Shown here piece after piece: positions 1,115 through 58,022 of a stretch of DNA of 64,000 nucleotides. Under the pieces are notes generated by a model, which saw only the letters and a program-made list of their open reading frames with translations, was not told where the DNA came from and ran no database searches. The DNA comes from Paenibacillus aceti. GTDB lineage: Bacteria; Bacillota; Bacilli; Paenibacillales; Paenibacillaceae. How positions within the stretch are numbered: position 1 is the first letter of the stretch; each line of letters opens with the position of its first letter. Both the position numbers and the translations under genes were made by a program. The stretch spans positions 1,482,633 through 1,546,632 of the forward strand of contig NZ_KZ987724.1 of NCBI RefSeq assembly GCF_003614185.1. The letters are read 5' to 3'.

Positions 1115-1652
1115 TCGCTCTTACCTCCTCAGTTCCCATGAATGAAGTGGGGTATTGTCTTTTGACGCCCTTCCCTCCGCAAGGTTATGTTGTCCTTTGC
1201 CTCATCAGTACTATGGCCCCCTCCGACTCCCTTCCCACGGATTCCCATTTCACCTATTTAGGCTTATAGGTTCACCATTTACGTATTTTTTTCGTGTGGG
1301 TGAGGGTCTCCCTAGTTCCAGACATAACTTTCTCCACATGCCGACCCCTATACACCGGAGAGTTCTTCCGCACTGCGATCCAAGTTCTTCATGCGTTCCA
1401 TGGCCTTCACCCTTTCGCTCGGGGCTCGGCACTCTCTTTTCCTCCCTTTGAGGTAGGTTAACCTTGACGATGCGGTAGGGTTCATTTTCATTACGGCCTG
1501 TGGATTTGCTTCACATGTTTTTTTTTACATGCTTTTTACAGGGCTTCAGTCCACGAATTTCGTCGTAGACTGCCTGCTAGCTACGGGGCAGCTTGGTCTT
1601 TACCCCGACTGAACTTTCATCAGTTAGTTATGCCTAGCTTGGCTAGGCGCGC
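1..1652 (-). mobile_element. Group II intron, 5' part (3' end beyond window)
   Basis: The minus strand holds the catalytic RNA 5' region (about 1115-1652) followed by the intron-encoded protein. The RNA part has no coding gene, contains many short inverted repeats and leads into the maturase ORF, as expected for domains I to III before the domain IV ORF. The 5' boundary is inferred at about 1652, where the sequence changes from a repeat unit ending TTTCGTT (minus strand) to GCGCGCC. This resembles the usual GUGYG intron start with one mismatch. Domains V and VI and the 3' exon are outside the window, so activity cannot be judged. Confidence 0.85.
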
Positions 1653-1834
1653 AACGAAACAGGGTATCGCTATTTGCGCCAAAAAGGGCTTCGAGAGATT
1701 GTAACGAAACAGGGGAACGCTATTCGCACAAATTGGGGGTCCGGGGCTTGTTTTCCTGTGAATAACGATATGATGTATCGTTAAAATTTTTTTGCCGATG
1801 TTTTTGTGGAAATAACGATCAGGAGTTTCGTTAG
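1651..1834. repeat. Four-unit intergenic element A1 (complete)
   Basis: Two forward units start at 1651 and 1701 and two inverted units at 1761 and 1811. The unit is CTAACGAAAC, four variable bases, then TATCGCTATT. Spacings are 50, 60 and 50 bp. The element ends 31 bp past the stop of the thioredoxin-like gene. The first two bases of unit 1 are replaced by the group II intron boundary, so the intron abuts the element. Function is unknown; five more loci are in this window. Confidence 0.85.
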
Positions 1835-1865
1835 AGCAATCCCAAGTAGAGCCATCAAAACGAGC

Positions 1866-2858
1866 TCAATCGGTCAACTTCGCCGTCTTCTTGATGCCCT
1901 CGTAGCTGATCGCGCCCAGGTATCTCTCCCGGATCATGCCGGAGGAATCGATAATATAGGTGGTCGGATAAGCGGTCACACTATACTCTTTGAGCACCTC
2001 TCCACTCTTGTCCAGCACGATAGGGAAGGTTAGCCCTTCTTTATCCGCATACTCCCCCACGAGATTCGCATTTCTCTCCTGCCTCGTCGCGTTGACCGAG
2101 AGAATAGTGACATCCTCCCCTCCTTGTTCGCGGTAAAACTTCTCCATATGCGGCATCTCAGCTTGGCAGACACGGCACCAGGTGGCCCAAAAATTCAGCA
2201 CTACAGTTGAACCACGATAGTTGGATAAGCGCACAGCATTTCCATCTAAGTCAGTTAGCTCAAAATCGGGAGCAGCTTGATCAAGCTGGACATTTTTGCC
2301 GCTCGATGAGTAATTAAGTATGGTAAACCCGATCATTCCGATGATCAGTGCAGTCGCAAGGGAGCGGACTGCCGCTTTGAGCGAGGGGCTCAGCATGAAC
2401 GCCAGCAATGTAACGGCCACGGACAATCCTGCGTAATCAGCAATTCCCGCCGCGTCATCCAGCAGGAGGAAGAGAAGAAATGCGGCCGCCGCCATTCCAG
2501 CTCCCCAGGTCACTGCGTTCATCATCGCCTCTCTGCTTCCAGCACGGCGAACCTCCCGCAGAAACAAATAAGCTAACACTACAATGGATGCAAGCCATAC
2601 TCCTCTAATTCCACCGCTGAAGAAAAGCAGGGATTGCGGGTGCCGGATGACCCCCTGGAAATCGAAAAGGATCAAGCTTGCTTTCCAGACAATGATCCAT
2701 ATAAAGACCGCATTCCAAGCCCCTGACATGCGCCGTTCCCTCTCCAGTCGGCCCCGTTCCCGGTAACGAACCGACAGAACGCCGACGATGCCCGCGATCA
2801 AATAAATCAACAGCTCCATATTCAACACGAATGTACCTATCTGCAAATTCGGCAGCAC
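1866..2858 (-). CDS. Membrane-anchored TlpA/ResA-like thiol-disulfide oxidoreductase
   Basis: A 330-residue protein. The N-terminal 190 residues are strongly hydrophobic, with about five to six membrane spans. The C-terminal 130 residues are a thioredoxin fold of the AhpC/TSA-Redoxin type, with the redox motif WCRVC near residue 228 and the cis-proline region AYPTTY near 300. Such proteins reduce disulfides outside the membrane, for example in cytochrome c maturation. The large membrane part is unusual beside ResA, which has one anchor, and is closer to CcdA/DsbD-like or uncharacterised fusions. The ATG at 2873 has an AGGAGG within its next codons, so the GTG at 2858 is the likelier start. 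Confidence 0.8.
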   Translation of the reverse strand: MLPNLQIGTFVLNMELLIYLIAGIVGVLSVRYRERGRLERERRMSGAWNAVFIWIIVWKASLILFDFQGVIRHPQSLLFFSGGIRGVWLASIVVLAYLFLREVRRAGSREAMMNAVTWGAGMAAAAFLLFLLLDDAAGIADYAGLSVAVTLLAFMLSPSLKAAVRSLATALIIGMIGFTILNYSSSGKNVQLDQAAPDFELTDLDGNAVRLSNYRGSTVVLNFWATWCRVCQAEMPHMEKFYREQGGEDVTILSVNATRQERNANLVGEYADKEGLTFPIVLDKSGEVLKEYSVTAYPTTYIIDSSGMIRERYLGAISYEGIKKTAKLTD

Positions 2859-2996
2859 CATCGCCTCCTTCATATTGAATACGAATTATAGCACAAAAAA
2901 CAACCTCATAGGCTGATGGGAAGATCAGGATCGAGTGTTTACAGACCGACGGCCTCGCACAGCTTGTCTATGAGTTGGGTATAATGAGGCTCATTT

Positions 2997-3072
2997 TGCA
3001 CATTTGCAGGCTTTTCCTAGAAACAAGCGCTTTCGGGCGATAATCCCTGCAGATTTGCGGGGATTTCCTGGC
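2997..3072. repeat. Two-unit repeat with TGCA core, 51-bp phase (family C)
   Basis: Two similar units begin with TGCA at 2997 (TGCACATTTGCAGGCTTTTC) and 3048 (TGCAGATTTGCGGGGATTTC), 51 bp apart, just downstream of the TPP-enzyme stop. A related pair lies at 44931-44996 with 50-bp spacing. The phase matches the four-unit elements. No function is assigned. Confidence 0.4.
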
Positions 3073-3078
3073 AGCCCA

Positions 3079-4707
3079 TTAATCCAGCTTCATCTCCCGC
3101 GCTAAGGAGGAAGGAATCTCTTCTTTATCGACAATCACATCGATGACATAAGGCTTGTTCAAACTTAGCGCCTGCTTGAGCACCTCCGTAAATTCGCCGA
3201 GAGTTGAACATCTGGCGCTATCCGCCCCCATCGAAGCTGCATATGCCGCAACATCAAGCGGCTGCTTGAATATGGTGCCGTCCGTCCGTCCGGTAAATTG
3301 CCGCATCCCCTTCAAAGCCATATCCAATTGCCCATTATTGATTACGATGAATATGACAGGCAGTTGCTCCGCGACACAGGTCGATATCTCGGAGCCCAGC
3401 ATGAACAGGCAGCCATCCCCGGTCAGACAGATGACATTGCGTGATCGGTCCGCGAATTTAGCGCCAATCGCCATCCCGATCGCATTCGCCATCGAAGCGA
3501 AATACGAATCGAAGAAGAACCTCACGCCAGGCTTGAGATCGAGCCAGCGAACCGCATGGTAACCATGGGCGCCATCATCAGCGAATATCGAGGTATTTTC
3601 AGGAATAAGTCCACTCACTGCCTGACAAACCTCAGCAACAGACAGAGATTCTAGCACAGGCAACGGATCATGATAAGGCTTGGCTATATGTAAATCGGCA
3701 GTCTCATCTGGGTATAAACGCAAGATTTCCTCCAGATTTGTCCGCAAATCTCCGAGAACAGGTAAATAATCTGTCTGAATAATTCCGCCCATGAATTCGG
3801 GTGAAATATCAAACTGAACAATGGACTGAGGATAATGAGCACGGTCCAGGCCACATAAGGCAGTATCACTCAACCGCGAACCCATCACCCATATCAAGTC
3901 CACCCCGGATTCCAGCAAATCCTTGGCCCTTTGATGCCCACCGAGACCAAAAGGCCCGTAATAAAGTGGATGGGAGGAATGGATGCTCCCCTTGCCTCCA
4001 GGAGTTGTTACGACAGGTACATTAAACTTCTCAGCGAACTTGTCCAACGCCTCCTGTGCGCCCGATAATACGACTCCCTTACCTGCCAGAATGACAGGGT
4101 TGCGAGCACTTTGCAGTTGCTTGACCGCATCCGCTAAATTCGTTGCTATGTAATTGATATTTCCAGACGGTAAATAGATTGTTGGATCAGCTACAGGCGA
4201 GATCATCACATCAAAGGGGATGCACAGATGCACAGGCCCTTTCCTCCCCGTCATCGCTTGACGCAGCGCGTATGTAAAGATAGCCGGGAAGTTATCGGCA
4301 CGAGTCACCATCGTACTGAACAAAGTAACCGGCTTCATAATCTCCGCCAAATCAATCCCAAATTGCGAAGAATCCTGGCATTGCGGAATTCCCATTTCAG
4401 CGACCGACTGATGTCCGGTAATGAAGAGCACCGGCAGACAATTCATCTTGGCATGGGCTGCCGCGGTGACAAGATTAGTTCCCCCCGGCCCTGAGGTAGC
4501 TACAACTACCCCCAATCTATGATTGGTAAATGCATAGCCTCCAGCGGCGAAGCCCGATCCGCTCTCATGCCTGCCTAGAATAAATTCAATGTTCTGGTCG
4601 CCAAATTCTAATATGATCGGAGCCACCGATTTTCCCGGAATTCCAAAGACATGTTCAACACCAAGCTTAGCAAGAGTTTCAACCAAGAGCTGTACAACAT
4701 TCTTCAC
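3079..4707 (-). CDS. Thiamine pyrophosphate-dependent acetolactate synthase-like enzyme
   Basis: A 542-residue protein with the three-domain acetohydroxyacid synthase/pyruvate oxidase fold. The N-terminal PYR domain carries the catalytic glutamate in LGRHESGSGFAAGGYA and the VVATSGPGGTNL block. The central domain follows (residues about 190-320). The C-terminal PP domain has the cofactor motif GDG followed about 25 residues later by NNG. It probably acts on a 2-keto acid such as pyruvate; substrate cannot be read. GTG at 4707 is chosen: AAGGAG lies 8 bp upstream and it overlaps the kinase stop as GTGA, implying translational coupling. No small regulatory subunit or other branched-chain gene is next to it. 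Confidence 0.85.
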   Translation of the reverse strand: MKNVVQLLVETLAKLGVEHVFGIPGKSVAPIILEFGDQNIEFILGRHESGSGFAAGGYAFTNHRLGVVVATSGPGGTNLVTAAAHAKMNCLPVLFITGHQSVAEMGIPQCQDSSQFGIDLAEIMKPVTLFSTMVTRADNFPAIFTYALRQAMTGRKGPVHLCIPFDVMISPVADPTIYLPSGNINYIATNLADAVKQLQSARNPVILAGKGVVLSGAQEALDKFAEKFNVPVVTTPGGKGSIHSSHPLYYGPFGLGGHQRAKDLLESGVDLIWVMGSRLSDTALCGLDRAHYPQSIVQFDISPEFMGGIIQTDYLPVLGDLRTNLEEILRLYPDETADLHIAKPYHDPLPVLESLSVAEVCQAVSGLIPENTSIFADDGAHGYHAVRWLDLKPGVRFFFDSYFASMANAIGMAIGAKFADRSRNVICLTGDGCLFMLGSEISTCVAEQLPVIFIVINNGQLDMALKGMRQFTGRTDGTIFKQPLDVAAYAASMGADSARCSTLGEFTEVLKQALSLNKPYVIDVIVDKEEIPSSLAREMKLD

Positions 4708-6095
4708 ATAGAACACTCCTTATAATTGCTTGTTAGAGGCAACTGAATATTAAAATCTGTACCTTCGCCCCATCTGGAATCGATAGTGATCTCTCCGTTG
4801 TGATTATTAATAATGCGGTAAGAAACCGACAGCCCGAGCCCTGTACCGTTCTCCTTGGTCGTAAAGAAGGGGTTCTGAACTTTGGTCAGATTCTCAGGAC
4901 AAATCCCGCTGCCCTGGTCAGAGATCGTAATGAGTAGATTATCGCCCAATTTCTGTGTTCTCAAGGTAACAATTTGATGGGGTTCAGAGGCTTCGACAGC
5001 ATTTTGTAAAATATTGAACAAGACCTGCTTGATCTGCGCAGCATCAGCAAATAAAATCTCCTCCTCGGCAGTATGGTAATCCCGTACGAACCGAATATCA
5101 TGCAGAGCAGCTTGTCCTTCCATAAAACTAAGTACACTATCCAGAAAAGCATTGATCGCAATCGGCTTGACAATAGGAACGGAAGGCTTGGACATCGTCA
5201 CAAAATCGGATACAAGGTTTTTGACCCTTTCCAATTCCTCTTGCACATACCCCATATACCGCTTCGTTACAGGATCAAGCAGGCGGGAATGGGTAATTTG
5301 CACGAAGCCCATGATGGTAGTAAGTGGGTTGCGTATCTCATGGGCGAGACCGGCTGCCAGTTTACCAATCGCTGACAGCTTCTCACTGACTATGATTTGC
5401 TGCTCTAGTAAATAGCGCTCGGTAATGTCGCGAACTTGGGCGTATACGCCTTGAATGACTCCACTCTCGAAGATCGGGATCATATCCATCAGGCAAACCG
5501 TATGCACTCCGTCCACATTATAATGAACCTCAATATCCCGCTGCCGCCGCCCCTTCGTAATCGCTTCCGAAATATAAGGCCCCAGCTCAGCAATTTGAAG
5601 CGCGGATTGCCCCACCTCAATACGATCCGGAATAATGCTTAGTGCCACCTTGTTAAAATCAACGATTACACCTGCTTGGTCAGCCAGGAGAATGCCTGTA
5701 TCCAAGTTATTGACCATAAGATGATGTAGATTCAACTGACGCTGGTTCGTCCTCCTTAAGATCAGTTCCCTCGCCATCGACTCTACCATATTAACCAGCA
5801 TCGCTAGCTGATAATTGCTAAACTCAACGATGCTTGTCATCAGTGAAATCGTGCCTTCCAATACTCCTTGCCCGCCATGGGGCTCAGGGAAAGAGAAAGG
5901 AACACTATGACAGGCAGAATCATGCAAAGCCAAATGGAAATGATCCGTTCCCACCGTCTGAAAAGGGATCTTCTTCTCCAGTGCAATCAAGGTCGCACAA
6001 ATCCCGACTTCTCGTTCAAGCAACATCCTCCCTTCTTTAATGTTCAATTGCGATAAGTTTTCTTTCAAGATCCGGTTGCCAAAAGAGTCAATAAC
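4704..6095 (-). pseudogene. Sensor histidine kinase, 3' part separated by IS insertion
   Basis: This part encodes the end of a GAF-like sensor region, a PAS domain (from the NLDTGILLADQAG block), a HisKA H-box (GLAHEIRNPLTTIMGF) and a HATPase domain with DQGSGI, FFTTKENGTGLGLS. It is the missing part of the gene that starts at 7845. Deleting the IS and one copy of the 9-bp duplication joins the two parts in frame (VTDDKGLVID then SFGNRILKEN), giving a 538-residue kinase. An internal TTG at 6068 could still yield a 454-residue kinase lacking the N-terminus. It is translationally coupled to the TPP enzyme. No response regulator is adjacent. Confidence 0.85.
6087..6095. repeat. Target-site duplication, left copy (GTCAATAAC)
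   Basis: The nine bases GTCAATAAC immediately precede the left terminal repeat of the IS4-type element and are repeated exactly at 7612-7620 after its right end. Nine bp fits the IS4-family subgroup this transposase resembles. Confidence 0.93.
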
Positions 6096-7454: not shown

Positions 7455-7611
7455 GTAGAGGACACCTCTTCTGCGTGGTAGTGATTGCTTAGGACACTCT
7501 CACTTTACCAAACGAAGCGGTGTTTTTCTATTTTTACAACTTCCATATTGAATCGACATTCTACCCAGTAACACCATGTAATAAGGCTAGTTTTCGCTCT
7601 GCGAAAGTTGA
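6096..7611 (-). mobile_element. IS4-family insertion sequence, complete, 1516 bp
   Basis: The ends are perfect 13-bp inverted repeats: TCAACTTTCGCAG at 6096-6108 and CTGCGAAAGTTGA at 7599-7611. They are flanked by the direct duplication GTCAATAAC. The single transposase gene fills the element, and its stop codon lies in the left terminal repeat. Perfect duplications and an intact transposase suggest a fairly recent insertion. It interrupts a sensor kinase gene in the GAF-like domain. Confidence 0.95.
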
Positions 7612-7620
7612 GTCAATAAC
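7612..7620. repeat. Target-site duplication, right copy (GTCAATAAC)
   Basis: Exact second copy of the 9-bp target duplication of the IS4-type element. On the minus strand it encodes the last codons (V-I-D) of the intact 5' kinase fragment. Confidence 0.93.
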
Positions 7621-7845
7621 CAGACCTTTGTCATCAGTGACGAGAAATAGCACCATCTGACCGTTAAGCAATTTGATTGTGTTTTCCCCAAAAATCTCCG
7701 TAACCTCAAGAATGTCGGCATAGAGCCGCTTTTGCGTCTGTAAATGTTCTTCAGTCACCTTTGTTAAGGGAGAAGGGACATCAGTCGGCTGCATTCCATT
7801 CGCGATACAACGTCGGCGAATCTCAGCAAGGAGATTGTTTTCCAT
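7612..7845 (-). pseudogene. Sensor histidine kinase, 5' fragment (N-terminal 78 residues)
   Basis: The ATG at 7845 has GGGGGGA upstream. The 78 native codons contain a start like the GAF-type sensor domain of AcoR-family regulators (IKLLNGQMVLFLVTDDKG). The frame then runs into the IS and stops at 7561 after about 16 foreign codons. It joins in frame with the 4704-6095 part when the IS and one duplication are removed. As it stands it makes only a short truncated product. Confidence 0.85.
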
Positions 7846-7882
7846 GTGATCGTCCCCCCGGATTGCGGATTAGCAGATTAGC

Positions 7883-7911
7883 AGAAAATACTATTTTCTC
7901 TACTGATTATA
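7883..7911 (-). promoter_or_regulatory. Putative promoter -10 and 17-bp palindromic operator of the kinase gene
   Basis: AGAAAATA, one base, TATTTTCT is a perfect palindrome at 7883-7899, 38 bp upstream of the kinase start. A minus-strand TATAAT (7911-7906) lies just upstream of it, so a bound protein would cover the likely transcription start. No confident -35 is seen, and the regulator is unknown. Confidence 0.4.
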
Positions 7912-7969
7912 CTATAATATTCTATCCTACTTACTGTACATCCCCAAACAAAAGTGATGAAGTTTTTCA

Positions 7970-20126: not shown

Positions 20127-20310
20127 GTAACGAAACTACGTATCGCTATCTGCAACAAAAAGAGTGATTTCAAGATCTAATGAAACTGGGTATCGCTATT
20201 GCGGCAAAAAAGGGCTAAACAGCGGGTTTCGGCTCAAATAACGATATGGTGTTTCGTTAGATTTGAACGGGGGCTGATTTTACTCAAATAACGATATGGA
20301 GTTTCGTTAG
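20127..20310. repeat. Four-unit intergenic element A2 (complete)
   Basis: Forward units start at 20127 and 20177, inverted units at 20237 and 20287 (spacings 50, 60, 50). It sits between the operon promoter and the dedA stop (183 bp past that stop). The remaining 20311-20493 has no supported gene. Confidence 0.85.
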
Positions 20311-33624: not shown

Positions 33625-34599
33625 CTAGTCACCTACCTTCTTCAGAAGCTTCTGAACGATCAGGTTCGAGCCGAGCATGATCGCGAAGAGTACGGTAGCG
33701 ATAGCGCTCGCATATCCCATCTCGAAGCGGATGCTGCCATAGTCGTTCAGATGAGTCACAATCGTGTGTCCGGCGTACTGCGGACTTGGAAAGCCAACCA
33801 TATTCGTCGCCACATCAGCGACCGCAAACGAGGATGTTATCTGCATCACGGCGCCGAACATCAGCATCGGCCTCAGCGACGGCAGTGTAATGAACCACAG
33901 CTCCTGCCAGCGATTGCGAATCCCATCGATCGCCCCCGCTTCGATCAGCGACATATCCATCCCCTGCAGACCGGCGATGAAGGCCAGGAACGCCGTTCCC
34001 AAGCTAAGCCATAGCTGCACGATCATAATGATGAACAGCATGTATTTCGGGTCCTGAAGCCATTGAATCGGTTCCAGGATGAAGCCCCATTTCATCAGAA
34101 AAGCATTCACATATCCGAACGAATCGCCGGAGAACGCCACCTGCCAGATCAAATACACATTGCCTGATATGGATGGTGCATAGAACAACAGTGTGATCAC
34201 TGAGCGAATCCGTGGAGGTAATTCGTTAATTAACCAAGCGAGAAAAAAACAGGCGATATAACTGAGTGGCCCCGTAACGACGGCGAACAGTAAGGTATTC
34301 TTCAAGGCGATCAGGAACACATCATCCTTGATGAACAGGTTCGCGTAATTCTCCCAGCCGATGAAGCTCGGCGGCTCCAGAATATTGAAATTGGTGAAGC
34401 TGAGTCCCAGCGCCATGAGTACAGGGAAAGCGGTGAAGATGAAGAAGAGAATGAAATATGGGGCCAGCAGCATATACCCTTGCCGCTTCATCTTCATCTC
34501 ACGGAATAGCTGTGCTGCCCGCCCCTTGTCAGGTCCTCCCAGACGATGCAATTCGGGATTCGTAGCGATCTCTTGAAGCCCTTGATTGGATAGTGACAT
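33625..34599 (-). CDS. Sugar ABC transporter permease, MalF-type (first pair)
   Basis: A 324-residue permease. The N-terminal 35 residues are cytoplasmic, followed by six spans. The EAA-type loop is LIEAGAIDGIRNRWQELWFITLPSLRPM. GAGGGAGG precedes the start. A 233-bp gap holding repeat element A3 separates it from the binding-protein gene upstream, the only large gap inside this operon. Confidence 0.93.
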   Translation of the reverse strand: MSLSNQGLQEIATNPELHRLGGPDKGRAAQLFREMKMKRQGYMLLAPYFILFFIFTAFPVLMALGLSFTNFNILEPPSFIGWENYANLFIKDDVFLIALKNTLLFAVVTGPLSYIACFFLAWLINELPPRIRSVITLLFYAPSISGNVYLIWQVAFSGDSFGYVNAFLMKWGFILEPIQWLQDPKYMLFIIMIVQLWLSLGTAFLAFIAGLQGMDMSLIEAGAIDGIRNRWQELWFITLPSLRPMLMFGAVMQITSSFAVADVATNMVGFPSPQYAGHTIVTHLNDYGSIRFEMGYASAIATVLFAIMLGSNLIVQKLLKKVGD

Positions 34600-34643: not shown

Positions 34644-34828
34644 CTAACGAAACACCAGAGCGCTATTTTCCCAAAAACGAGCGCGTTTTAAATCTAACGA
34701 AACACCATAACGTTATTGCTGAGAAATACAGACTTACGGTCATAATTCCGGCTCGATAGCGATACCAGGTTTCGTTACAATTTTTAAAGTCACCTTTGGG
34801 TGCAGATAGCGATACCCTGTTTCGTTAA
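34644..34828. repeat. Four-unit intergenic element A3 (complete), inside the sugar operon
   Basis: Forward units start at 34644 and 34694, inverted units at 34755 and 34805 (spacings 50, 61, 50). It begins 4 bp past the stop of the CBM-like binding-protein gene and precedes the first permease pair. It could end, weaken or protect the transcript there. Confidence 0.88.
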
Positions 34829-34831: not shown

Positions 34832-37795
34832 TTAATTGGGCAATCCGAACTCCTTACGCTTCTTCGTAATCTCATCATTGATATATTGCGTGTAGGTGTC
34901 GATCGCTTCACGAGGGTCCTCGCTCGAGATCACGACACTGCGGAATGCATTGTCCAGATGACGACCGGTGAAGTAGCCGCCTGCCACTTCAGGAATGCCC
35001 CGCGCCCATTTCCACTGCTCCATCAGCGTCTTATAATGCTGCGATTGCCACGGAATACGTGCCATCGCTTCCAGGTTTGCGGTGGAACCGCGGCCTGAGG
35101 GACCGAATAGTCCTTCCAGCTCCAGGCTATACTTGGCCTGGGTCTCGGTGCTGGTCCACCATTTCAGGAAAGCCCAAGCCTCATCCTTATACTTGCTGGC
35201 TTCCAGCATCACCGCTGCTGAGCCTCTGGTCGGCACATCGCGGCGAACCGTTCCATCCGCCTGCTCCGTCCCCGGTACCACAGTAAAATCCCATAATCCT
35301 TTTAACTCAGGCGCTGTGACGCTGATGATATTGAACCGGGTGTAATCATCAATCGCGATCGGCATCTCGCCGCTGCGGAAGCGGTTGACAAAGTCGGTCG
35401 TAATCGGCAGCTTATACGTCGTATACAGATCGGTCCAATCCATGAAGGTCTTGATCGCCAGCTCGGTATCAAGCGCGCTCGCTTGGCCTTCCTCTCTATA
35501 CAATTGTCCGCCGTTCTGATACAGCATCGTACCGAAGGCTGCGTTGACTGGCAGAGAAGATGCGTCTTGGACGTTGGCACCGAGACGAACCAGTACCTGA
35601 ATGGGGAAGCCGAACAGCAGATTATGCTTCTGCAGCTCTGGAATCATCGTGAACACGTCTTCCCAAGTCTCCGGCACTTCCAGATTCATCTCCTCCAAAA
35701 TGTCCTTGCGATAGAAGAGAACCGGAAAAGACTGATCGATCGGCAGACCATAGATCCCCCCGTTGAATTGGTAAGGAACCATCGCGCTCGGATGGAAGCG
35801 CCCCGCTACCTGCTCGTACCCGGGGTACTTGGACAGATCCTCCACCGCATTGCGCAGCGCATAGTTTACAGGCTTATCATTCGGCAGGGAGAACGCCACG
35901 TCAGGTCCACGTCCGGCCAGCATCGCCTGCAGCAGCACGCCTTCACTGACGACCTGAATATCGACAGCGACCCCCGTCTCATTCGTGAATGACTCATCGA
36001 TCAGCCGCTTGGCGATCTTCGCCTGATCAATCCCCTGAGTCATCCAGAGCGTGATCTTCTTATCCGTGTCCTTCGCCGCCCCAAGCACGTTGAAATCGGT
36101 GAAGAATGACAGCATGAAGGTCCCCGTATTGTATTTGAGCTTGCTCCAAAAGCTGGCCTTGGCCGTAGGAAGCTTCATATCCGGGGAAGCAACGATCAGG
36201 TAATCGATCGACAGCGGCATATAATTGATCGAATAGATCCAGTCGCCAAGGGAGCTGGTGTTGGACTTGAAGGTCTCCAGCCGCCTGGCAATGGTCTCCG
36301 GGCTCTTGGCCATATCGCGCAATTGCACGATCAACCGCGTAAGCGATGCGGTGCGATCCCCGCTGCCGGCCAAGCGCTCGGCTTGTCTGGCGACAGCTTC
36401 AAGAATATCGGCCTGATCCTGCATCGTCCCTACGAGATCCGGCAGCTTCTTATCCAGCTGATAGTCGCGATATTCATCCGGAACCGTGCCGGTAATCATA
36501 ATAATGTGACGATACATCCGGTTGAGCTCAAGCACGCTGGATTCCACGATGCGCAGCAGATCCGCCATCTCACCCAGAGTGACTTCCATTTTGAGCTCAT
36601 GCGAGCCCTTAGTAAGGTAGAACAGATACGGCTCCGCCGGGGAAGAACCGCTCGGTTCCGTGCTCAGCTCCTTCATCTCCCAATCGGTTGAGAAGGGGAA
36701 GGCGATGTTCTCCATCTCGGCAAAAGGAAGCTTCCCATCGATGTACAATTTGCGATAGGAGGTCATTCCCCGCTGGAAGTTCTGCTTCGCCTTGATTCCT
36801 ATATGATAGAGACCATCCTCTGGAACCTCGATATTCCAGGTCAACCATTGCCCGGCCTCCGACCAGTTATAACCACCGATCGTGTTCAAGCGGATTTGCG
36901 AAATATGGGTAGGCTCTGTGCCGGGATCGCTGCGATCCATCAACGGATATAGCACCTGGCTTGATTTCAGCACCGCTTCCTCGCCTTGGATTTTAAGCAG
37001 AACGTTAGAAGACGGAGTATGGCCTAGCTCTGCATAACCAGCGGATACCTGTGCATAGTCAGGAACTTCATCCGACTGCTTCAAGGTAATCCGGTCGATC
37101 AGCATCCTCTCCCTTGCCGATATGAGGGTCAGGGTATGCTCTCCCTGAGAGAAATAATAGGAATACGGCGCCGTATGTCGCCCATCCGGGCTCTGTACGT
37201 AGGTCTCCTGCCAGAGCGGCTTCTCGATCTGCTTCTGATACAGATCATTGCCGCGGTCATCCTGCTGCATCTCTCCCTCATTAGCCCAAATGCGCCGGAA
37301 CATAACATTTTTGCTCTCATTAAAAGGAAGCTCTCCATCAATATGCAGCTCCCGGTCGATATCCGCGTTCTTGCCCTCCAACTGATAATAGCGAACCGCA
37401 ATCTGGTACAGACCTGCCTGCGGGACTTGAAAGCTCCACGTCAAGCTGCCTTCCTCCCCCGTCTCTACCGCCTGTCCGCTTAAACCGGGAATCCCCTCTA
37501 CGATCTGCGGGTTCATTTTATCCGTACTAGTGAAGCTCTCTCCTTCGATCACAATCGGAGTGTCAGGACGCGGGGCCGCTTGATGCTGGGCCAAATATTG
37601 ATCATAGCTGCCTTCCTGATATTGCCTGGGTATGGCCTCCGTCTCGAAGGTCTGGACCGGCTCTGCGGCTTCTGCTTGCGTAGACCTCGTCAGATCGAAT
37701 GTACCGGGCAGAATCCCCCCCGTCCCAAGCACGATGACGAGCATTAGCTTCAGCCAGCGACCCTTGACGGTTGAACTGCTATGAACTGAAGGCAT
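34832..37795 (-). CDS. Solute-binding protein fused to two N-terminal carbohydrate-binding-like domains
   Basis: A 987-residue exported protein. The signal segment is WLKLMLVIVLGTGGILPGTF, with no lipobox. Two beta-sandwich domains of CBM6/CBM35 character follow: one with EGESF, then LTWSFQVPQAGLYQIAVRYY, and another with WLTWNIEVPEDGLYHIGIKAK (about residues 60-430). A family-1 binding domain occupies about 570-987 (KKITLWMTQGIDQ, LLQAMLAGRGPDVAFSL, YGLPIDQSFPVLFYRKDIL). ATG 37795 has AAGGAGG six bases upstream and is preferred over 37846. The fusion is unusual, since binding proteins rarely carry surface carbohydrate-binding modules. Confidence 0.85.
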   Translation of the reverse strand: MPSVHSSSTVKGRWLKLMLVIVLGTGGILPGTFDLTRSTQAEAAEPVQTFETEAIPRQYQEGSYDQYLAQHQAAPRPDTPIVIEGESFTSTDKMNPQIVEGIPGLSGQAVETGEEGSLTWSFQVPQAGLYQIAVRYYQLEGKNADIDRELHIDGELPFNESKNVMFRRIWANEGEMQQDDRGNDLYQKQIEKPLWQETYVQSPDGRHTAPYSYYFSQGEHTLTLISARERMLIDRITLKQSDEVPDYAQVSAGYAELGHTPSSNVLLKIQGEEAVLKSSQVLYPLMDRSDPGTEPTHISQIRLNTIGGYNWSEAGQWLTWNIEVPEDGLYHIGIKAKQNFQRGMTSYRKLYIDGKLPFAEMENIAFPFSTDWEMKELSTEPSGSSPAEPYLFYLTKGSHELKMEVTLGEMADLLRIVESSVLELNRMYRHIIMITGTVPDEYRDYQLDKKLPDLVGTMQDQADILEAVARQAERLAGSGDRTASLTRLIVQLRDMAKSPETIARRLETFKSNTSSLGDWIYSINYMPLSIDYLIVASPDMKLPTAKASFWSKLKYNTGTFMLSFFTDFNVLGAAKDTDKKITLWMTQGIDQAKIAKRLIDESFTNETGVAVDIQVVSEGVLLQAMLAGRGPDVAFSLPNDKPVNYALRNAVEDLSKYPGYEQVAGRFHPSAMVPYQFNGGIYGLPIDQSFPVLFYRKDILEEMNLEVPETWEDVFTMIPELQKHNLLFGFPIQVLVRLGANVQDASSLPVNAAFGTMLYQNGGQLYREEGQASALDTELAIKTFMDWTDLYTTYKLPITTDFVNRFRSGEMPIAIDDYTRFNIISVTAPELKGLWDFTVVPGTEQADGTVRRDVPTRGSAAVMLEASKYKDEAWAFLKWWTSTETQAKYSLELEGLFGPSGRGSTANLEAMARIPWQSQHYKTLMEQWKWARGIPEVAGGYFTGRHLDNAFRSVVISSEDPREAIDTYTQYINDEITKKRKEFGLPN

Positions 37796-37882
37796 TGCCA
37801 TCCTCCTTCCATCCCTTCCATCTAAGAGGGACACCCCATTCGACATATCCGCCTTTGAGGTGTCCCGTCAGGGCTCTAATGA

Positions 37883-45024: not shown

Positions 45025-45185
45025 TAGGCAAGTTAGTAGCGGATTGAGGTTGGTTAGCTTTGAGGCAGGCAGTTTGTGGCGGATTGCGAGGTAAGTTTGC
45101 TTTGAGGCAGGTAGTTTGTGGTGGTCACAGTAAATTAGCGTTGGGGCAAGTAGTTTGCGGCGGATCACGGTAAGTTAACGCTGGA
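45025..45185. repeat. Degenerate tandem repeat, about 40 bp period, four copies
   Basis: Repeats of the pattern GGCAGGTAGTTTG, TGGCGGAT, GGTAAGTTTGCTTTGA run from about 45025. Four copies have recognisable AGTTTG and GCGGAT cores, with decay at both ends. No protein frame is conserved across them. Confidence 0.5.
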
Positions 45186-45276: not shown

Positions 45277-45461
45277 CTAACGAAACGTGGTATCGCTATC
45301 TGCACCAAAAAGGGCAGTCGATAATTCTAACGAAACTGGATATCGCTATTGAGGCCATTTTGGGGTCTAAAGCCGGGATTTAGCCTGAATAACGATATGG
45401 TGTTTCGTTAGATTTTTTTTACCGCTGTTTTTGAGGAAATAGCGATATAGTGTTTCGTTAG
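45277..45461. repeat. Four-unit intergenic element A4 (complete)
   Basis: Forward units start at 45277 and 45327, inverted units at 45388 and 45438 (spacings 50, 61, 50). It ends 40 bp beyond the nosF stop. Confidence 0.88.
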
Positions 45462-49776: not shown

Positions 49777-49779
49777 ACT

Positions 49780-50807: not shown

Positions 50808-50881
50808 CTAAAGAAACCTCATATCGTTATTTCCGCAAAAATGAGGGGAATGGGAATCTAACGAAATGTACAATATCCCTG
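50808..50881. repeat. Half element A5 (two forward units)
   Basis: Two degenerate forward units start at 50808 and 50858 (spacing 50). The inverted half is replaced by an unrelated hairpin at 50899-50945. It looks like a decayed copy. Confidence 0.65.
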
Positions 50882-52009: not shown

Positions 52010-52029
52010 ATGATTTCCCCCAACGCGCT

Positions 52030-53082
52030 TCAATTCTTAGTATATAAATGCTGCATCAGCTCGCGATTCTTTTGCGTGAACAGATCATTATGAGAAGAGA
52101 CCATTCCGTACGCATTGGCATCCGGCGAAATATACTTCTTCGCTTGGTTCACCGCATTCGCCGCATCCTGGAAAGCTCCAGCAATCAGATGCAGCTTTCC
52201 TTCATGATCCAATACATCACCAGCTGCATAGATCCCGGGCACCGATGTCTCGCTCAACGGAGTACCGGCAATCCCGTATTCCCTCAATTCCAGCTGAACC
52301 TCGCTGTTAGCCAGCAGATCCTTATCGCGCTCATAGCCGTGGTTAATGATCATTTCATCGATAGCCAGCTCAAATGTAGCGCCCGTCTCATTGCTTTTCA
52401 GGGCAATCGTTTCGATTCTCTGATGATCCTCCGACGCAATCAGCTTCTCGATTGAAGTGTTCAGCAGGCACTCCACATTGCTCTTCTCCAGTCGGGAGAT
52501 TTCAGCCTCATGCCCCTTCAAGGTATCTTTGCGATAGGTTAAATATACCTGCTTCGCAATCGGCCCTAGTTCATTCGCCCAATCCACCGCCGAATTGCCG
52601 CCGCCAGAGATCAGCACCGTCTTGTCCTTGAAGCGGGCCAGTGATTTTACAGTGTAATGTAGATTCGTAACCTCGAAGCGCTCCGCTCCTTCGATATCCA
52701 GCTTAATCGGCTTCAGAATGCCGCCGCCAATAGCCAGGATAATCGCCTTGGAGTAATGCAGCTGGCCTGAGCCAGTATGTAGAATGAAGCGCCCCTCTTC
52801 ATCCTTCGCAATAGACGTCACCTTCTCACCAAGTACAACCTCTGGCTGGAAGGTCAAGCCCTGAGCAACCATTTGCTCGATCAGCTTCGCACCAGGAACC
52901 GGTGTCAAGCCCCCGACATCCCAGATCATCTTCTCCGGATAGACATGCACCTTCCCACCTAGATAGGGTTGAAATTCAACGATTTTCGTCCTCATTTCAC
53001 GCAGACCGCTATAAAATGCTGCAAATAGTCCTGCGGGGCCGCCCCCTACAATCGTTACATCAAATAAATCTATATCATGCAT
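52030..53082 (-). CDS. Ferredoxin/flavodoxin-NADP+ reductase-like flavoprotein (YumC/YcgT/IruO type)
   Basis: A 350-residue FAD protein. It has the FAD loop VTIVGGGPAGLFAAFYSG, the NADPH motif VLISGGGNSAVDWANEL, and the C-terminal YAAGDV with DAANAVNQA. No redox CxxC is present, which sets it apart from thioredoxin reductase. In Staphylococcus, IruO of this group reduces siderophore iron and haem oxygenases; the Fur-box operon supports such a role here. Proposed partner: the LLM monooxygenase upstream. Confidence 0.9.
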   Translation of the reverse strand: MHDIDLFDVTIVGGGPAGLFAAFYSGLREMRTKIVEFQPYLGGKVHVYPEKMIWDVGGLTPVPGAKLIEQMVAQGLTFQPEVVLGEKVTSIAKDEEGRFILHTGSGQLHYSKAIILAIGGGILKPIKLDIEGAERFEVTNLHYTVKSLARFKDKTVLISGGGNSAVDWANELGPIAKQVYLTYRKDTLKGHEAEISRLEKSNVECLLNTSIEKLIASEDHQRIETIALKSNETGATFELAIDEMIINHGYERDKDLLANSEVQLELREYGIAGTPLSETSVPGIYAAGDVLDHEGKLHLIAGAFQDAANAVNQAKKYISPDANAYGMVSSHNDLFTQKNRELMQHLYTKN

Positions 53083-53136
53083 CGTACAATCTCCTCACTT
53101 ATATGGATATGGCGCTTTGGCCTTTTATTTCTCTCT

Positions 53137-54477
53137 TCAAATTGATGATTGAATCCCTGATTGAAGCTCTGGACGAATCCCTAAATGCTCCTTCAGCGTC
53201 GAGCCGGCATATTCACTCCTGAACAAGCCCCGCTCCACTAACTTTGGCACCAACTGCTCAAAGAACAGCTCCATCGATTTCTCGGAACCACCCGGAAGAG
53301 CGATGAACCCATCGATTGCGCCAGCATCATACTTCTGCACAATATCCTCCAGTACATCGTCCACCGTACCGACAGAAACCCAATGCGCTGACCCGAGAAC
53401 CTCTGGTCTGGACAGCACTTCCGCCACGGTCGGCTGGTGATTGGCAATAAATCGGCGAAGCAACTCGGCATGGGTTCGGCTGCGCACCTTCTGCTCCGGA
53501 TCAGGGAGCATATCGGCAGTCACGCGCTCATTCAGAGCAAGACCGCTTAAATCCAGACCGAGCACAGATTTCAGGGATGCCAGTCTTCGCTCCGTGCTAA
53601 AATGTGCGTTCGCCTCGGCGAATAATGCCTGAGCCTCCTCGCGCGAGTCGGCCAAGAAGAAATAGAGTCCCGGCAGAATACGGATCGCATCCGGGTCACG
53701 CCCCTGCTCCTCTGCCCTTCGTCTCAGATCATGCCGTAATTCAACCCCGGACTCGAGATCCGGCATCGCGGCGAAGATCGCATCCGCTACCGAAGCTGCG
53801 AAATTCCGGCCAATATCCGATGCGCCTGCCTGGAACAACGGGATGCTGCCCGATGAGTGAGCAGGCAAGGAGAGCGGCCCCTTGACACTATAGAACTCTC
53901 CGGAATGATCGATCGCGGAGACTTGCTGCGGGTCCGTAAATTGGCCCGATTCACGGTCAATTCGGATCGCTTCATGCGGGAAGCTGGCCCATAGCTTGCG
54001 CACTACATCGGTGAACTCCCTCGCTCTCGCATACCTCTCTTCTGGCGAAGGCATAGGCGCATCACCGAAATTCTCCGCTCCTTCAATCGAGGTTACAATA
54101 TTCCAGCCTGCACGCCCATTGCTCAACCAATGCAGCGATTGCAGCTGCCTCGCCACGACATACGGCGGATTGAAGGTGGTAGAGACCGTTGTAACGAGTC
54201 CGATGTGCTCCGTCTCGCGGGCGATCGCCGCAAAGATCATCGTAGGGTCAGGACTGCCAAAATTAGCGGAATCGCCCAGCATCTGCGGGCTTACATACAG
54301 ATAATCCGCTCTGAATAGGAAATCGAGCTTCGCCTTCTCCGCCAGCTTGGCCAAATCGATATAATAATCAATCGAACCCATTCTCTCTACGCCGCTATCC
54401 GGACGCCGCCAGCCATGGCCCTTCATCCAGGTAGCTGATAATGAAAGTCCGATACATAATTGCCCGTTCGCATTCAC
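53137..54477 (-). CDS. LLM-class flavin-dependent monooxygenase (NtaA/SnaA/DszA family)
   Basis: A 446-residue enzyme. Family blocks are YIDLAKLAEKAKLDFLFRADY, TFNPPYVVARQLQSLHWLSNGRAGWNIVTS, and GSIPLFQAGASDIGRNFAA. These enzymes use reduced FMN to oxidise small molecules such as metal chelators. GTG 54477 has GGGAG upstream. The ATG at 54519 would place the start inside the Fur box. First gene of the iron operon. The substrate is unknown. Confidence 0.9.
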   Translation of the reverse strand: MNANGQLCIGLSLSATWMKGHGWRRPDSGVERMGSIDYYIDLAKLAEKAKLDFLFRADYLYVSPQMLGDSANFGSPDPTMIFAAIARETEHIGLVTTVSTTFNPPYVVARQLQSLHWLSNGRAGWNIVTSIEGAENFGDAPMPSPEERYARAREFTDVVRKLWASFPHEAIRIDRESGQFTDPQQVSAIDHSGEFYSVKGPLSLPAHSSGSIPLFQAGASDIGRNFAASVADAIFAAMPDLESGVELRHDLRRRAEEQGRDPDAIRILPGLYFFLADSREEAQALFAEANAHFSTERRLASLKSVLGLDLSGLALNERVTADMLPDPEQKVRSRTHAELLRRFIANHQPTVAEVLSRPEVLGSAHWVSVGTVDDVLEDIVQKYDAGAIDGFIALPGGSEKSMELFFEQLVPKLVERGLFRSEYAGSTLKEHLGIRPELQSGIQSSI

Positions 54478-54518
54478 TTTGCTACTCCCATCCTCTCCTG
54501 CATAATAGAATAATAACA

Positions 54519-54537
54519 ATAATGATTATCATTCTCA
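54519..54537 (-). promoter_or_regulatory. Fur box of the iron operon
   Basis: ATAATGATTATCATTCTCA contains TGATTATCATTCTCA, which matches the 7-1-7 consensus TGATAATNATTATCA at 12 or more positions. It lies 42 bp upstream of the monooxygenase start. Confidence 0.8.
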
Positions 54538-54604
54538 ATTAACAGTGTAGCAAGCTCCCTATCAATTGCAAATACACAAATGACGAATGCGACATGCACA
54601 ATTA

Positions 54605-55420
54605 TCAAATCTGATCCCCGTATGCGGATGGAGATACGCCAAATTTTTTCTTAAATGCCCGGCTAAAATAGAGCGGATTCGCATAACCCACACTGACAGC
54701 GATATCACGAATTGGAAAATTACCAGTCCTCAATAGCTCGCTCGCCCTCTCCATCCGGTAATGAATGACATAATCAATCGGCCGGAGGCCCGTATATTTA
54801 TGGAAGAAATAAGAGAAGCGCTTCGGATTCATGGCATGCAGACCAGCCAGCTCCTCCAGGGTTAACGGATTCATATAATTCCTCTTAATATACGCGATCG
54901 CTTCCTCTATTACTTCTATATTGGGAGAGCTGCTAGACTTGCGATTCTGATGGCCGACCAGCACCTGATGCATGATGCTGAGGAATAATTCCTTCACACG
55001 AAGCTTCCCGATCCCTCCCGCAGTATGCATATTCTGATGAAGCATAAGCAGCATTTCGATCACTCTCGGAAGGGCTCCGGGCTCTAGCTTGAAATGAGTA
55101 TTGCACTCATGCTCGCTATTCTCTGCACATTGTTTATCCAGACTATAGTAAATGGAATAATACTCAAGCTCGGCTTCACTAGTGACCTGAGCTTCCATCT
55201 GCATGCCCGGAGCAGCATGAAATACAGAGCCTGGCTGCAATTCATAGACCGTACCGTTGACGGTTATTTGGTTGGTTCCACGAGTTATAAAGATAAATCC
55301 ATATTTAATAGTCCTGAATTCTCGCAAAATACTCCTCGGCTGAATTACTAGACGATATACACTTTCGATCTCATAGGAATCATTGGCGAATACCGCGGCT
55401 AACCTCTCCACATCGATCAT
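54605..55420 (-). CDS. AraC-family regulator beside the iron operon
   Basis: A 271-residue protein. Cupin-like N-terminal domain (GFIFITRGTNQITVNGTVYELQPGSVFHAAPG) and two C-terminal helix-turn-helices (LTLEELAGLHAMNPKRFSYFFHKYTG and PIRDIAVSVGYANPLYFSRAFKKKFG). It is in the same direction, upstream of the Fur box, as in the other AraC/Fur-box locus at 11504. It may activate iron uptake, as Btr does for bacillibactin (inference). Confidence 0.88.
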   Translation of the reverse strand: MIDVERLAAVFANDSYEIESVYRLVIQPRSILREFRTIKYGFIFITRGTNQITVNGTVYELQPGSVFHAAPGMQMEAQVTSEAELEYYSIYYSLDKQCAENSEHECNTHFKLEPGALPRVIEMLLMLHQNMHTAGGIGKLRVKELFLSIMHQVLVGHQNRKSSSSPNIEVIEEAIAYIKRNYMNPLTLEELAGLHAMNPKRFSYFFHKYTGLRPIDYVIHYRMERASELLRTGNFPIRDIAVSVGYANPLYFSRAFKKKFGVSPSAYGDQI

Positions 55421-55576
55421 GGCTTTACACCCGCTTCCTGTTTAGATATTGTCACCTTGACTCTTTCTTCAAATCACCGAACTAACTACATATCATGTTA
55501 TGCACAATATATGATTGACTAATATATTGCAAAAGTATAAGATGTCCTAAATGGTAAATTATAGGGGTCGTTACAA

Positions 55577-56443
55577 ATGAAGGAGAATAATGTAGCGAAT
55601 ATAGAGATAAAGTTGCTCGACCTAGATGCTATGGTAAAATTAATCAAAGGTGCATTTTCTCTCGAATTGTGGTATAATTTAGTAGAGTTGTCGGATGCCT
55701 TACTATTTAAAGTGAATCAAAGGCTTCGCGGCATGACTGTTACAGATAGCGAGGAATTAATAACGCCTCCCCAGCGGCCCTTAGTTTACTATTATGGCTA
55801 TTCATTATTGATGAAGGGCTCCGCATTGAAAAATTTGGGGAAATACCACGAGGCTAAACATTGCATTGAAAATTACTCAGATTTAAGCTGGTTTGAAGAT
55901 TTAAATGATGAAGGGTTAGAAGTTGTAGATTACTTTAGATATGTTTCCTATCCTAATAGATTAGAAATTGAACTAACATTAGGAAATTTCAATGTAATGA
56001 GTGAATTCATTACTTTCTTGCGAGAAAATCCTGACGAAATCCTGTATGGAGTCATCGCCATATTAAAAGCAGCCAACAAACATCATATCAATGTAGACCA
56101 AGAATTATCTATATTTGCTGAACAAATCAATGAACTGACGCATAGGCGCATAGATGTAAATGAGGTATTCGACACTTTGGTATGTGCTTATTATGCTGAA
56201 CAAACTCAATATTGCCTGAATAAGCAATCCTATCAGGAAGCCATTCACTACTGCTTTTTACTAGCATCTTTGTCTTTAAAATATGAGAAAATAAAAGCTT
56301 TTAGAAAAGCAGTCATTTGGATAGAGCAGTTAAGGAGCTTCACTACGTCTTCTCAGATTGACACATATATATCAATTTTAAAAGGAGAGTGGCAAAATGA
56401 AGAAGTTTCTATTAACGGTGACCCTGTTCATGTCAGTCATTAG
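55577..56443 (+). CDS. TPR-like helical peptide receptor (RRNPP/AimR-like, no helix-turn-helix)
   Basis: A 288-residue protein, wholly helical with TPR-like repeats: PLVYYYGYSLLMKGSALKNLGKYHEAKHCI (about 70-100), LELTLGNFNVMSEFITFLREN and QEAIHYCFLLASLSLKYEKI. The blocks recall TPR receptors of Paenibacillaceae peptide signalling. No DNA-binding domain precedes residue 1; the ATG at 55577 follows AGGGGTCG. It would act, like Rap proteins, by contacting another protein. Its 3' end overlaps a secreted-peptide gene, the usual layout of receptor/propeptide pairs. Its DNA is AT-richer than the neighbours. Confidence 0.7.
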   Translation: MKENNVANIEIKLLDLDAMVKLIKGAFSLELWYNLVELSDALLFKVNQRLRGMTVTDSEELITPPQRPLVYYYGYSLLMKGSALKNLGKYHEAKHCIENYSDLSWFEDLNDEGLEVVDYFRYVSYPNRLEIELTLGNFNVMSEFITFLRENPDEILYGVIAILKAANKHHINVDQELSIFAEQINELTHRRIDVNEVFDTLVCAYYAEQTQYCLNKQSYQEAIHYCFLLASLSLKYEKIKAFRKAVIWIEQLRSFTTSSQIDTYISILKGEWQNEEVSINGDPVHVSH

Positions 56444-56513
56444 TATTGTACTGCCAGCCATATCAGCCGGGGATGATACAGTCGCTCAACGCTACTTCGG
56501 AGAACATTATTAA
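56397..56513 (+). CDS. 38-residue secreted propeptide overlapping the receptor gene (Phr-like)
   Basis: Too short for usual gene callers. ATG 56397 has AAGGAG nine bases upstream and overlaps the last 47 bp of the receptor gene in another frame. The product begins MKKF, has a hydrophobic core at residues 4-19, a likely signal peptidase site after A-I-S-A (residue 24), and a C-terminal tail GDDTVAQRYFGEHY. Phr-type signals are cut from such tails and re-imported. The mature peptide is unknown. A terminator follows, giving a two-gene unit. Confidence 0.72.
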   Translation: MKKFLLTVTLFMSVISIVLPAISAGDDTVAQRYFGEHY

Positions 56514-56544
56514 GTCTTTATCATCATAGCAATTTAGCACCACA

Positions 56545-56583
56545 AGCGGGCCAGAGTTCCAACTCTGCCCGCTCTTTCATTTT
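56545..56583 (+). terminator. Terminator of the receptor/peptide unit
   Basis: AGCGGGCCAGAGTT and its inverse AACTCTGCCCGCT form a strong hairpin with a CC loop, followed by CTTTCATTTT, 31 bp past the peptide stop. Confidence 0.9.
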
Positions 56584-56598
56584 ATAAGTCAGGATATG

Positions 56599-57720
56599 CT
56601 ATTCGATAGCTCCATGAATGTCATAGTCATGAAGATCAATCTCCAATTCCATTTCCAAGGCGAGCTTAGCGAGCTGGCTACCGATATACGGCCCCATCGT
56701 AAGTCCGGATGCTCCGAGACCATTGGCGGTGATCAGCCCCTGCCAACCGGGAATCCGCCCGATAACGGGAAGAAAGCCGGGAGTAAAAGGCCGAAATCCG
56801 ACTCTTATCTCTTCGAAGGTGCTAGTCTCTAAGCCGGGTGCCAGCGCCAAGCCTTTATTCAAAATTTCCTGCATCCCGCCTGGCGTAATTCTTGTATCAT
56901 AGCCTTGGACCTCATTCTCATGGGTCGCTCCCATCACCATCTTATGATGCCCGAAGCCAAGCAGATATTGATCCGTTGGCGGCATAATGACAGGCCAGCT
57001 TCCGCTATCCATACTATGATCCACCTGAAGATGCATAATTTGTGCTTTTTGAAAATGTACATTAAAAAGAATGCCCAGCGGCTGCAGCAGCTCCCTCGCC
57101 CAAGCCCCTGCGCAGACAATCGTCTGATCAGCGGTGTAGTTGATATTATCCACACGAGCTCCTGTTACCCGGTTCGCTTGGAATTCGAGTGCGGCTTCTC
57201 CATGAATCAGCCTTGCTCCATTTCGCTGTGCCGAGCGAAGCAAGGCATCGCGCAGAGCTCGGCCGTCCACCCGGGCTGCCCCACTGATATGAACGGCATG
57301 ATACCCCTCCGCTAATAGAGGAAAGCGCTGATGGGTCTCGGACTCGTTCAAGCGGGTAATCTCCCCAATCTCTGCTGCATCCTCTTTACGCAGCTTCGCC
57401 CGTTCCTCCATTTTGATCACTTTCTCGGGATCATGATGAATGCTGAGCGCACCAACCCTGGCGTACCCTGTCTCCGTCTCCCCTTCTCTTATCAGCTCTT
57501 CGATCAATCCCGGATAGAAGCTTGCGCCTGCCTTAGCCAGCCGATACCAAGCCTGATTACGCCGTTGTGACAGCCAAGGACAAATGATCCCGGCAGCCGC
57601 ATCGGTAGCCTGTCCCTCGTCTTGTCGATCTATAATAAGAACGTCTGCCCCCAGCTTCGCCAGCTGATAAGCGGTGGACGCTCCTAGAATTCCCGCTCCA
57701 ATGACCATATATTTCTTCAT
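56599..57720 (-). CDS. FAD-dependent amine oxidoreductase (DadA/ThiO-like)
   Basis: A 373-residue flavoenzyme of the DAO family. The FAD loop is MVIGAGILGASTAYQLAKLGADVLIID, with TDAAAGIICPW after it, and the C-terminal IGRIPGWQGLITANGLGASGLTMGP block. Likely substrates are D-amino acids, glycine or sarcosine; not readable. It is not linked to the other genes by spacing. Confidence 0.88.
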   Translation of the reverse strand: MKKYMVIGAGILGASTAYQLAKLGADVLIIDRQDEGQATDAAAGIICPWLSQRRNQAWYRLAKAGASFYPGLIEELIREGETETGYARVGALSIHHDPEKVIKMEERAKLRKEDAAEIGEITRLNESETHQRFPLLAEGYHAVHISGAARVDGRALRDALLRSAQRNGARLIHGEAALEFQANRVTGARVDNINYTADQTIVCAGAWARELLQPLGILFNVHFQKAQIMHLQVDHSMDSGSWPVIMPPTDQYLLGFGHHKMVMGATHENEVQGYDTRITPGGMQEILNKGLALAPGLETSTFEEIRVGFRPFTPGFLPVIGRIPGWQGLITANGLGASGLTMGPYIGSQLAKLALEMELEIDLHDYDIHGAIE

Positions 57721-57887
57721 GATGCAATCCCCTTCTACATAGCTACTCCTTCAGTTCCGGGTCATGTACCTCTATAACCTTAGGACTCGCATGACCCGCA
57801 AAACCATTATAGCTTATTATCGCCCCGAGCCCCATAGTATACGGACAAGAGACGAGAAAGCCTGCGGATTTCTGGCTCATGATATTC

Positions 57888-58022
57888 TAAACGAAACTAC
57901 GGAACGCTATTTGAGCTAAATCGAGGCTTTAAGTGACTATTTCGGCCGAATAACGTTACACAGTTTCGTTACAATCGTCAGAGGCGCTTTGGGGCACGAA
58001 TAGCGATACCAGGTTTCGTTAG
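57888..58022. repeat. Three-unit element A6 (first forward unit missing)
   Basis: One forward unit at 57888, then inverted units at 57949 and 57999. Spacings of 61 and 50 bp equal the unit 2-3-4 spacing of complete elements, so it is a copy that lost unit 1. Confidence 0.8.

Follow-up and report, generated by a model that had tools for sequence, protein, structure and literature searches.

A dispersed intergenic element of four units at near-constant spacing in Paenibacillus and related genera

The window considered here, a 64,000-nucleotide stretch of the Paenibacillus aceti chromosome (genome G000, C1:1482633-1546632; a congener of Paenibacillus sp. D2_2 and GM2), carries several copies of a non-coding element made of four units that resemble binding sites, set at near-constant distances of 50, 61 and 50 bases and present in many copies in Paenibacillus and its relatives. 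The array was first noticed by a sequence-only reading of the window, which placed it at six intergenic loci; this observation is confirmed, but its scope was too narrow, the system being family-wide and written in multiple unit dialects. Repeats scattered through bacterial genomes are commonly taken for selfish sequences or RNA hairpins. In the present family, single loci compared across species keep their spacing better than their sequence; the spacing is common to different units and, in one genus, differs by one helical turn. The testable question becomes a general one: can repeat families be selected as DNA platforms, and what protein reads them? Tentatively, with confidence close to even, we favour the view that each copy is a chromosomal DNA platform read by a putative sequence-specific protein and under selection at individual sites.

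Geometry of the element and its constraint at shared loci

The 24-bp unit is a near-palindrome organised about a dyad, with a 21-bp core TAACG-N11-CGYTA, and the element orders two direct and two inverted units about a central axis, for a total of about 185 bp. Dyad centres are thus 50, 62 and 50 bp apart, close to 5, 6 and 5 turns at 10.0-10.3 bp per turn. The unit CTAACGAAAC-NNNN-TATCGYTATT has 19 matches in the window at up to three mismatches and none in 100 dinucleotide shuffles, and the exact 21-base core is found 285 times (142 + 143) in the G000 genome, where the reversed control gives 0. When units within 200 bp of one another in the loci examined were grouped with no further spacing filter, the 66 resulting clusters had direct forward neighbours at 50 bp in 52 of 55 cases (49 twice, 51 once), inverted neighbours at 61 bp in 47 of 58 (60 in eight, 59 in one, and 110-111 in two cases where a unit is missing), and reverse neighbours at 50 bp in all 49. 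Neither a scatter of random single units nor a broad distribution of distances was found, although seven of the 66 clusters had a single unit at up to four mismatches. The same exact 50/61/50 geometry holds for 64 of 69 quartets in GM2, 18 of 19 in D2_2 and four of six in other Paenibacillus records, so that the fixed geometry first proposed stands even where no spacing was required, in these clusters and in the GM2 and D2_2 loci. A set of 214 four-unit elements from four related genomes (G000 72, GM2 77, G011 35, D2_2 30), pre-filtered to within 4, 6 and 4 bp of 50/61/50 and with units overlapping within 24 bp collapsed into one, is exact in 185 cases.

Within the element, mean column identity is 0.84-0.91 for the units versus 0.51-0.62 for the spacers. 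Most copies are polar, with the four-base middles of the units C-rich on the same strand throughout: in 36 G000 copies they read mostly NCCA, ACCA, CCCA and CCNN on one strand, and a larger copy set confirms the polarity, G accounting for only 1-7% at these positions. An A/T-tract (AAA for units U1 and U2, TTT for U3 and U4) is found on the TATT side of the dyad, 18-22 bp from its centre, in 88, 87, 56 and 91% of 131 G000-clade copies, against a background of AAA or TTT in 20% of other spacer 5-mers. Some elements have six or more units, the extra ones added outward at steps of about 47-57 bp (L085 6701-7343; L096 3777-4036 and 6392-6710).

The sequence-only reading had proposed asking whether spacing is conserved better than sequence, and the answer is that it is, by far, both at loci shared between species and across dialects. 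By their flanks, 49 pairs of elements could be matched strictly between species, at 31 loci, from each of which the most diverged pair was taken. Identity there is 93.9% at unit positions, 76.8% at the middle four bases, 70.2% in spacers and 86.1% in flanks, whereas a length change affects only 10 of 93 spacers (31 x 89 bp = 2759 bp), as compared with 137 indel events in 3639 aligned bp of flank. From these figures one derives about one length change per 80 substitutions in spacers and one indel per four substitutions in flanks, a ratio that is only approximate because part of the flanking DNA is coding and the alignments may contain too many gaps. The trend is nonetheless strong: compared with flanks, spacers are more diverged in sequence and far less so in length. 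The averages retain locus group 23 (L076/L286), probably not orthologous since its polarity is opposite and its spacer identity 0.35. The constraint on units and spacing at shared loci supports the earlier suggestion that the element is selected, and distances kept while sequence drifts suggest a protein complex reading the spacing. To be sure, copies of a repeat family may be expected to start with the same geometry, and recent copies might have had too little time to change in length. This account by ancestry alone was already disfavoured and is highly improbable, in view of some 30% spacer difference at shared loci with so few length changes, and of a geometry that is also present with quite different inner unit sequences.

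Spread, dialects and gene context

An exact pattern finds the element in four of 41 congeners, a sequence profile (E <=0.01) in 28 of the same 41. Restriction to four species was therefore rejected as an artefact of the exact pattern, against the profile result and the family-wide spread of a generic pattern (two units 50 bp apart, at most two mismatches, central distance left free). Among 296 genomes sampled from the family, 171 match the latter, in 16 of 19 genera, and the reversed control gives 0 in every row. Outside the family, the generic pattern occurs in 1 of 215 and 3 of 139 sampled genomes, or four of 351 when each genome is counted once, each of the four having between one and three matches. 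Eight further congeners show the quartet of two forward and two reverse units in 57 of 67 loci read (70 less L307, L324 and L326, the same places on the other strand), mostly with other unit sequences, and in none of 20 mononucleotide shuffles. Their 63 quartets are spaced 50/61/50 in 41 cases, 50/60/50 in 13 and otherwise in nine. The dialects include CTAACGGAAC..AGAGACGTTATT in G018, CTAACGGTTGCCACAGCCGTTATT in G012 and CTAACGAATCTCA...ACGYTATT in G037; more than one dialect may be found within one genome, as in G037 (L323 as against its other loci) and, among the matches listed, in G014.

The central distance, which is unbiased in these pattern searches, differs in one genus, g7. Among the matches listed, and with palindromic units matching both strands at one place omitted, 16 of 17 pairs of forward and reverse neighbours in this genus are 119-120 bases apart and one is at 114, versus 109-111 bases for all 16 pairs from other genera. 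Fetched loci of g7 gave 13 quartets, spaced 50/71/50 in ten, 50/70/50 in two and 50/65/50 in one, while a fourteenth locus, L387, has only a reverse pair. The change of the centre from 61 to 71 is a gain of 10 bp, one turn of DNA, and therefore fits recognition of one face of the helix.

Elements are placed between genes: with genes predicted from a simple hexamer score instead of an annotation pipeline, just one of 214 elements shares more than 40 bp with a gene. In loci of the four species, element-bearing intergenic regions are co-directional in 108 cases, convergent in 42 and divergent in 18, whereas those of at least 150 bp without any unit number 100, 14 and 35, respectively. The convergent to divergent ratio is thus 42:18 with the element versus 14:35 without (Fisher p = 2e-5).

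Fully palindromic units (e.g. TAACGGCAC..GTGCCGCTATT) also exist at the same 50-bp period, in G067 (C1:1243597-1244120), G268, G154 and G188, and G067 has at least eight of them in one direction in one run. Such a run, as well as the period of about 50 bp for unit plus spacer, recalls an array of clustered regularly interspaced short palindromic repeats (CRISPR). Unlike CRISPR, however, the element mixes orientations, its spacers can be aligned between copies and it is dispersed over many loci, so that the initial statement that it is not a CRISPR holds; cas genes were not searched for.

Platform, mobile element or hairpin

Constraint on units and distances, the one-turn shift, A/T-tracts at two turns from the dyad in one clade, the lack of a pairing signal (see below) and the existence of dialects together fit a protein platform. 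Each dyad unit would be a site of the kind expected for a protein dimer, and a putative protein or complex could occupy all four sites at once, the 185 bp or so of DNA being probably bent or wrapped by it. Found between genes, and preferentially at convergent rather than divergent places, such platforms might serve as a topological or transcriptional boundary. A more ambitious form of this proposal, possible yet somewhat doubtful, would have dispersed four-dyad platforms act family-wide as sites of chromosome architecture, with a lineage-specific protein co-evolving with its dialect, a complex measuring helical phase, and placement at gene boundaries achieved by turnover.

A non-autonomous element resembling a miniature inverted-repeat transposable element (MITE) remains the main rival, given that sites turn over, occurrence is patchy and dialects are mixed. 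Each end would carry a pair of transposase-binding sites, held in a geometry needed by the transpososome, and dialects, sometimes two in one genome, would follow the transposase of each lineage; we see this as a serious possibility, if a minority one. High copy number and intergenic position speak for it, and the outer units do form terminal inverted repeats at the ends of the element. No element was found at the nine species-sites examined that correspond to window copies, namely in D2_2 for 34644, in G011 and D2_2 for 45277, and in G011, D2_2 and GM2 for both 50808 and 57888; the few single matches in these related loci have five mismatches and lie elsewhere in the locus. Occurrence is patchy among congeners and family genomes. 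GM2 has tandem arrays with locus-specific periods of 200, 201, 211, 220, 244, 272 and longer, the junctions read including right and left flank sequence, and at a shared locus (L083 of D2_2, L040 of G000) a 50-bp module present in D2_2 is missing in G000. Against this, copies compared at the same locus between species remain constrained in units and spacing, which would not be expected of dead insertions. Among possible mobilisers, PF01797 (the Y1 family, with the REP-associated tyrosine transposases or RAYT, where REP stands for repetitive extragenic palindromic) has 14 matches in G000 and 0 in G011, G031 and G032, all of which carry the element; a RAYT/IS200 mobiliser was thus rejected for three of four hosts. 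The 14 G000 matches have identical profile scores and 157-aa frames. Recurring clusters of open reading frames beside elements in the loci examined (8, 6, 5, 5 loci and fewer) contain, by eye and with no family search run on them, nothing resembling a transposase; no recurrent neighbouring gene was retained, the clusters looking like ordinary gene families, neighbours that are orthologous, or a frame falsely called across another repeat. No target-site duplication was found, the conserved flank words differing by subfamily, nor any clean empty site in 116 flank-pair comparisons between loci mostly chosen for holding elements: 95 sites were occupied, and the remaining 21, mostly at array junctions, had one unit at most, three of them none. 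The early suggestion that the element was made by transposition is plausible, some sites being lineage-specific and GM2 having tandem arrays, although no mobiliser, target duplication or clean empty site was found. Platform and MITE may both be true, if a mobile element was taken into use.

That the element folds as a long hairpin, in RNA or single-stranded DNA, for example as a stabiliser of messenger RNA or a terminator at 3' ends, is unlikely. The inverted order does make units 1-4 and 2-3 complementary and single copies do fold; enrichment between convergent genes, a weak polarity bias and the place of the 34644 element between two transporter-like genes would also suit this explanation. 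But the arms do not co-vary as base pairs, which disfavours a folded RNA and leaves the pairing proposed by the sequence-only reading without backing. The RNAalifold consensus has a covariation term of +0.05 kcal/mol and a kept double change in two of 33 pairs. Complementarity of the arms within a copy is not above that of arms shuffled between copies, whether in 36 copies or in 131 dereplicated ones (184 before removal of those at least 85% identical), and in the latter spacers are slightly less complementary than shuffled (0.408 observed versus 0.423, z -2.8). The larger set, like the mutual-information and pair-by-pair analyses, excluded one element whose polarity score was zero and the 29 of 214 that depart from 50/61/50. 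Pairing of the middle four bases of U1 and U4 is below chance, which is not claimed as a signal because subfamilies can produce it; likewise, the top-scoring pairs 91-102 and 80-108 (z 4.1 and 3.7) were not retained, coming from 570 tests with a background standard deviation of 1.19 and 1% of values above z 3. No Rfam family matches over the element in the window or in seven further loci, and fixed absolute lengths are not needed by such a fold.

Several observations nevertheless weigh against the platform we favour. The reader protein is putative, and the presence of more than one dialect in some genomes does not strictly agree with one co-evolving reader for each genome. Several of the window copies are lineage-specific, and a mobile element would explain this equally well or better. 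Both profile and pattern fail to match 13 of 41 congeners, making the element dispensable in the genus. In diverged species the 50-bp spacing is not unbiased, because both search tools, profile and 50-bp pattern, lean towards the geometry already known, and the A/T-tracts are less regular (0.25-1.0 at U1/U2, 0-1.0 at U3/U4 in 35 copies). Polarity along co-directional genes is weakly biased, 65 in the same and 43 in the opposite direction (p = 0.043), which could hint at a role at the transcript level. Finally, the hairpin diagonal has the highest mutual information (mean 0.0143), though not in the Watson-Crick direction; this peak looked supportive of a hairpin and was discounted, being without Watson-Crick excess (mean z -0.57). 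The original interpretation, taken as a whole, is partly supported.

Among known systems, REPINs (REP doublets forming hairpins) and bacterial interspersed mosaic elements (BIMEs) come closest. According to PMC3116915 and PMC2817692, GI REPINs are inverted pairs at a fixed 71 bp and BIME-2 is reported to bind DNA gyrase. Like the families described there, ours consists of many short palindromic intergenic units, also clustered, with spacer length kept while sequence varies and with units that differ between species. Its units, too, are inverted and at fixed distances, but as four in a 2+2 order instead of the REP doublets mobilised by RAYT. Three of four hosts are without a PF01797 match; the arms show no pairing signal, where REPIN spacers are described with compensatory changes, and the element displays a measured constraint at shared loci and a shift of one helical turn in one genus. 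Prokaryotic MITEs share with it a short, non-coding, high-copy nature and inverted ends, but here an incomplete search found no autonomous partner or target duplication and retained copies are constrained. The ends of the unit might also recall integron attC sites. The bcr1 repeat of the Bacillus cereus group, of about 150-170 bp and mobile-like according to a title cited in PMC2267715, is similarly dispersed and intergenic in Bacillales, a likeness of description, not of sequence; the shared secondary structure listed there for bcr1 is not supported for our element. No description of the element in Paenibacillus was found in open-access PMC text among the matches listed, which does not prove absence.

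Copies in the window and their surroundings

The four complete elements and the three-unit copy of the initial reading were all recovered where it had placed them, the latter still in phase (Table 1). For the shortest copy, the 50-bp phase was right and its description as two forward units slightly generous.

Table 1. Copies of the four-unit element in the window (strand, polarity of the copy; signs in brackets, orientation of units)
Feature	Coordinates	Strand	Details
Complete four-unit element, 50/60/50	1651..1834	-	units 1651-1674 (+), 1701-1724 (+), 1761-1784 (-), 1811-1834 (-); middles C-rich on - strand
Complete four-unit element, 50/60/50	20127..20310	-	units 20127-20150 (+), 20177-20200 (+), 20237-20260 (-), 20287-20310 (-)
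Complete four-unit element, 50/61/50	34644..34828	+	units 34644-34667 (+), 34694-34717 (+), 34755-34778 (-), 34805-34828 (-)
Complete four-unit element, 50/61/50	45277..45461	-	units 45277-45300 (+), 45327-45350 (+), 45388-45411 (-), 45438-45461 (-)
Truncated copy	50808..50866	+	whole unit 50808-50831; a second unit, 50 bp further at 50858, is reduced to its first nine bases
Three-unit copy, spacing 61 and 50	57888..58022	+	units 57888 (+), 57949-57972 (-), 57999-58022 (-); without the outer forward unit

The third complete element is flanked by a permease-like gene (33625-34599, - strand) and by a gene with a weak sugar-binding-protein match (34832-37846, - strand); the latter, upstream of the permease-like gene, codes for 1004 aa, the match covering residues 643-742. 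The sole Rfam match of the window, to group II intron D1-D4-4 (87 bits, 1486-1626, - strand), directly adjoins the first element, and a 37-nt repeat occurs three times at 45046-45163, with spacings of 42 and 39 bp, just ahead of the fourth.

Other repeats accompany the element elsewhere. A second intergenic repeat, a short hairpin TTCCTGC-(4-12)-GCAGG..TTT, has 30 matches in 362,248 bp of G000 loci, none of them in the window, and sits in the flanks of several of these loci (e.g. L041, L065, L032). A third dispersed sequence (...TTCAGCACCGAGAAGG...AATTCAAGATTCGATGYCGAATA...) lies near elements in several species, at L157 ~2394-2480, in the right flank of L061 and in others, and is probably the source of flank matches between unrelated loci.

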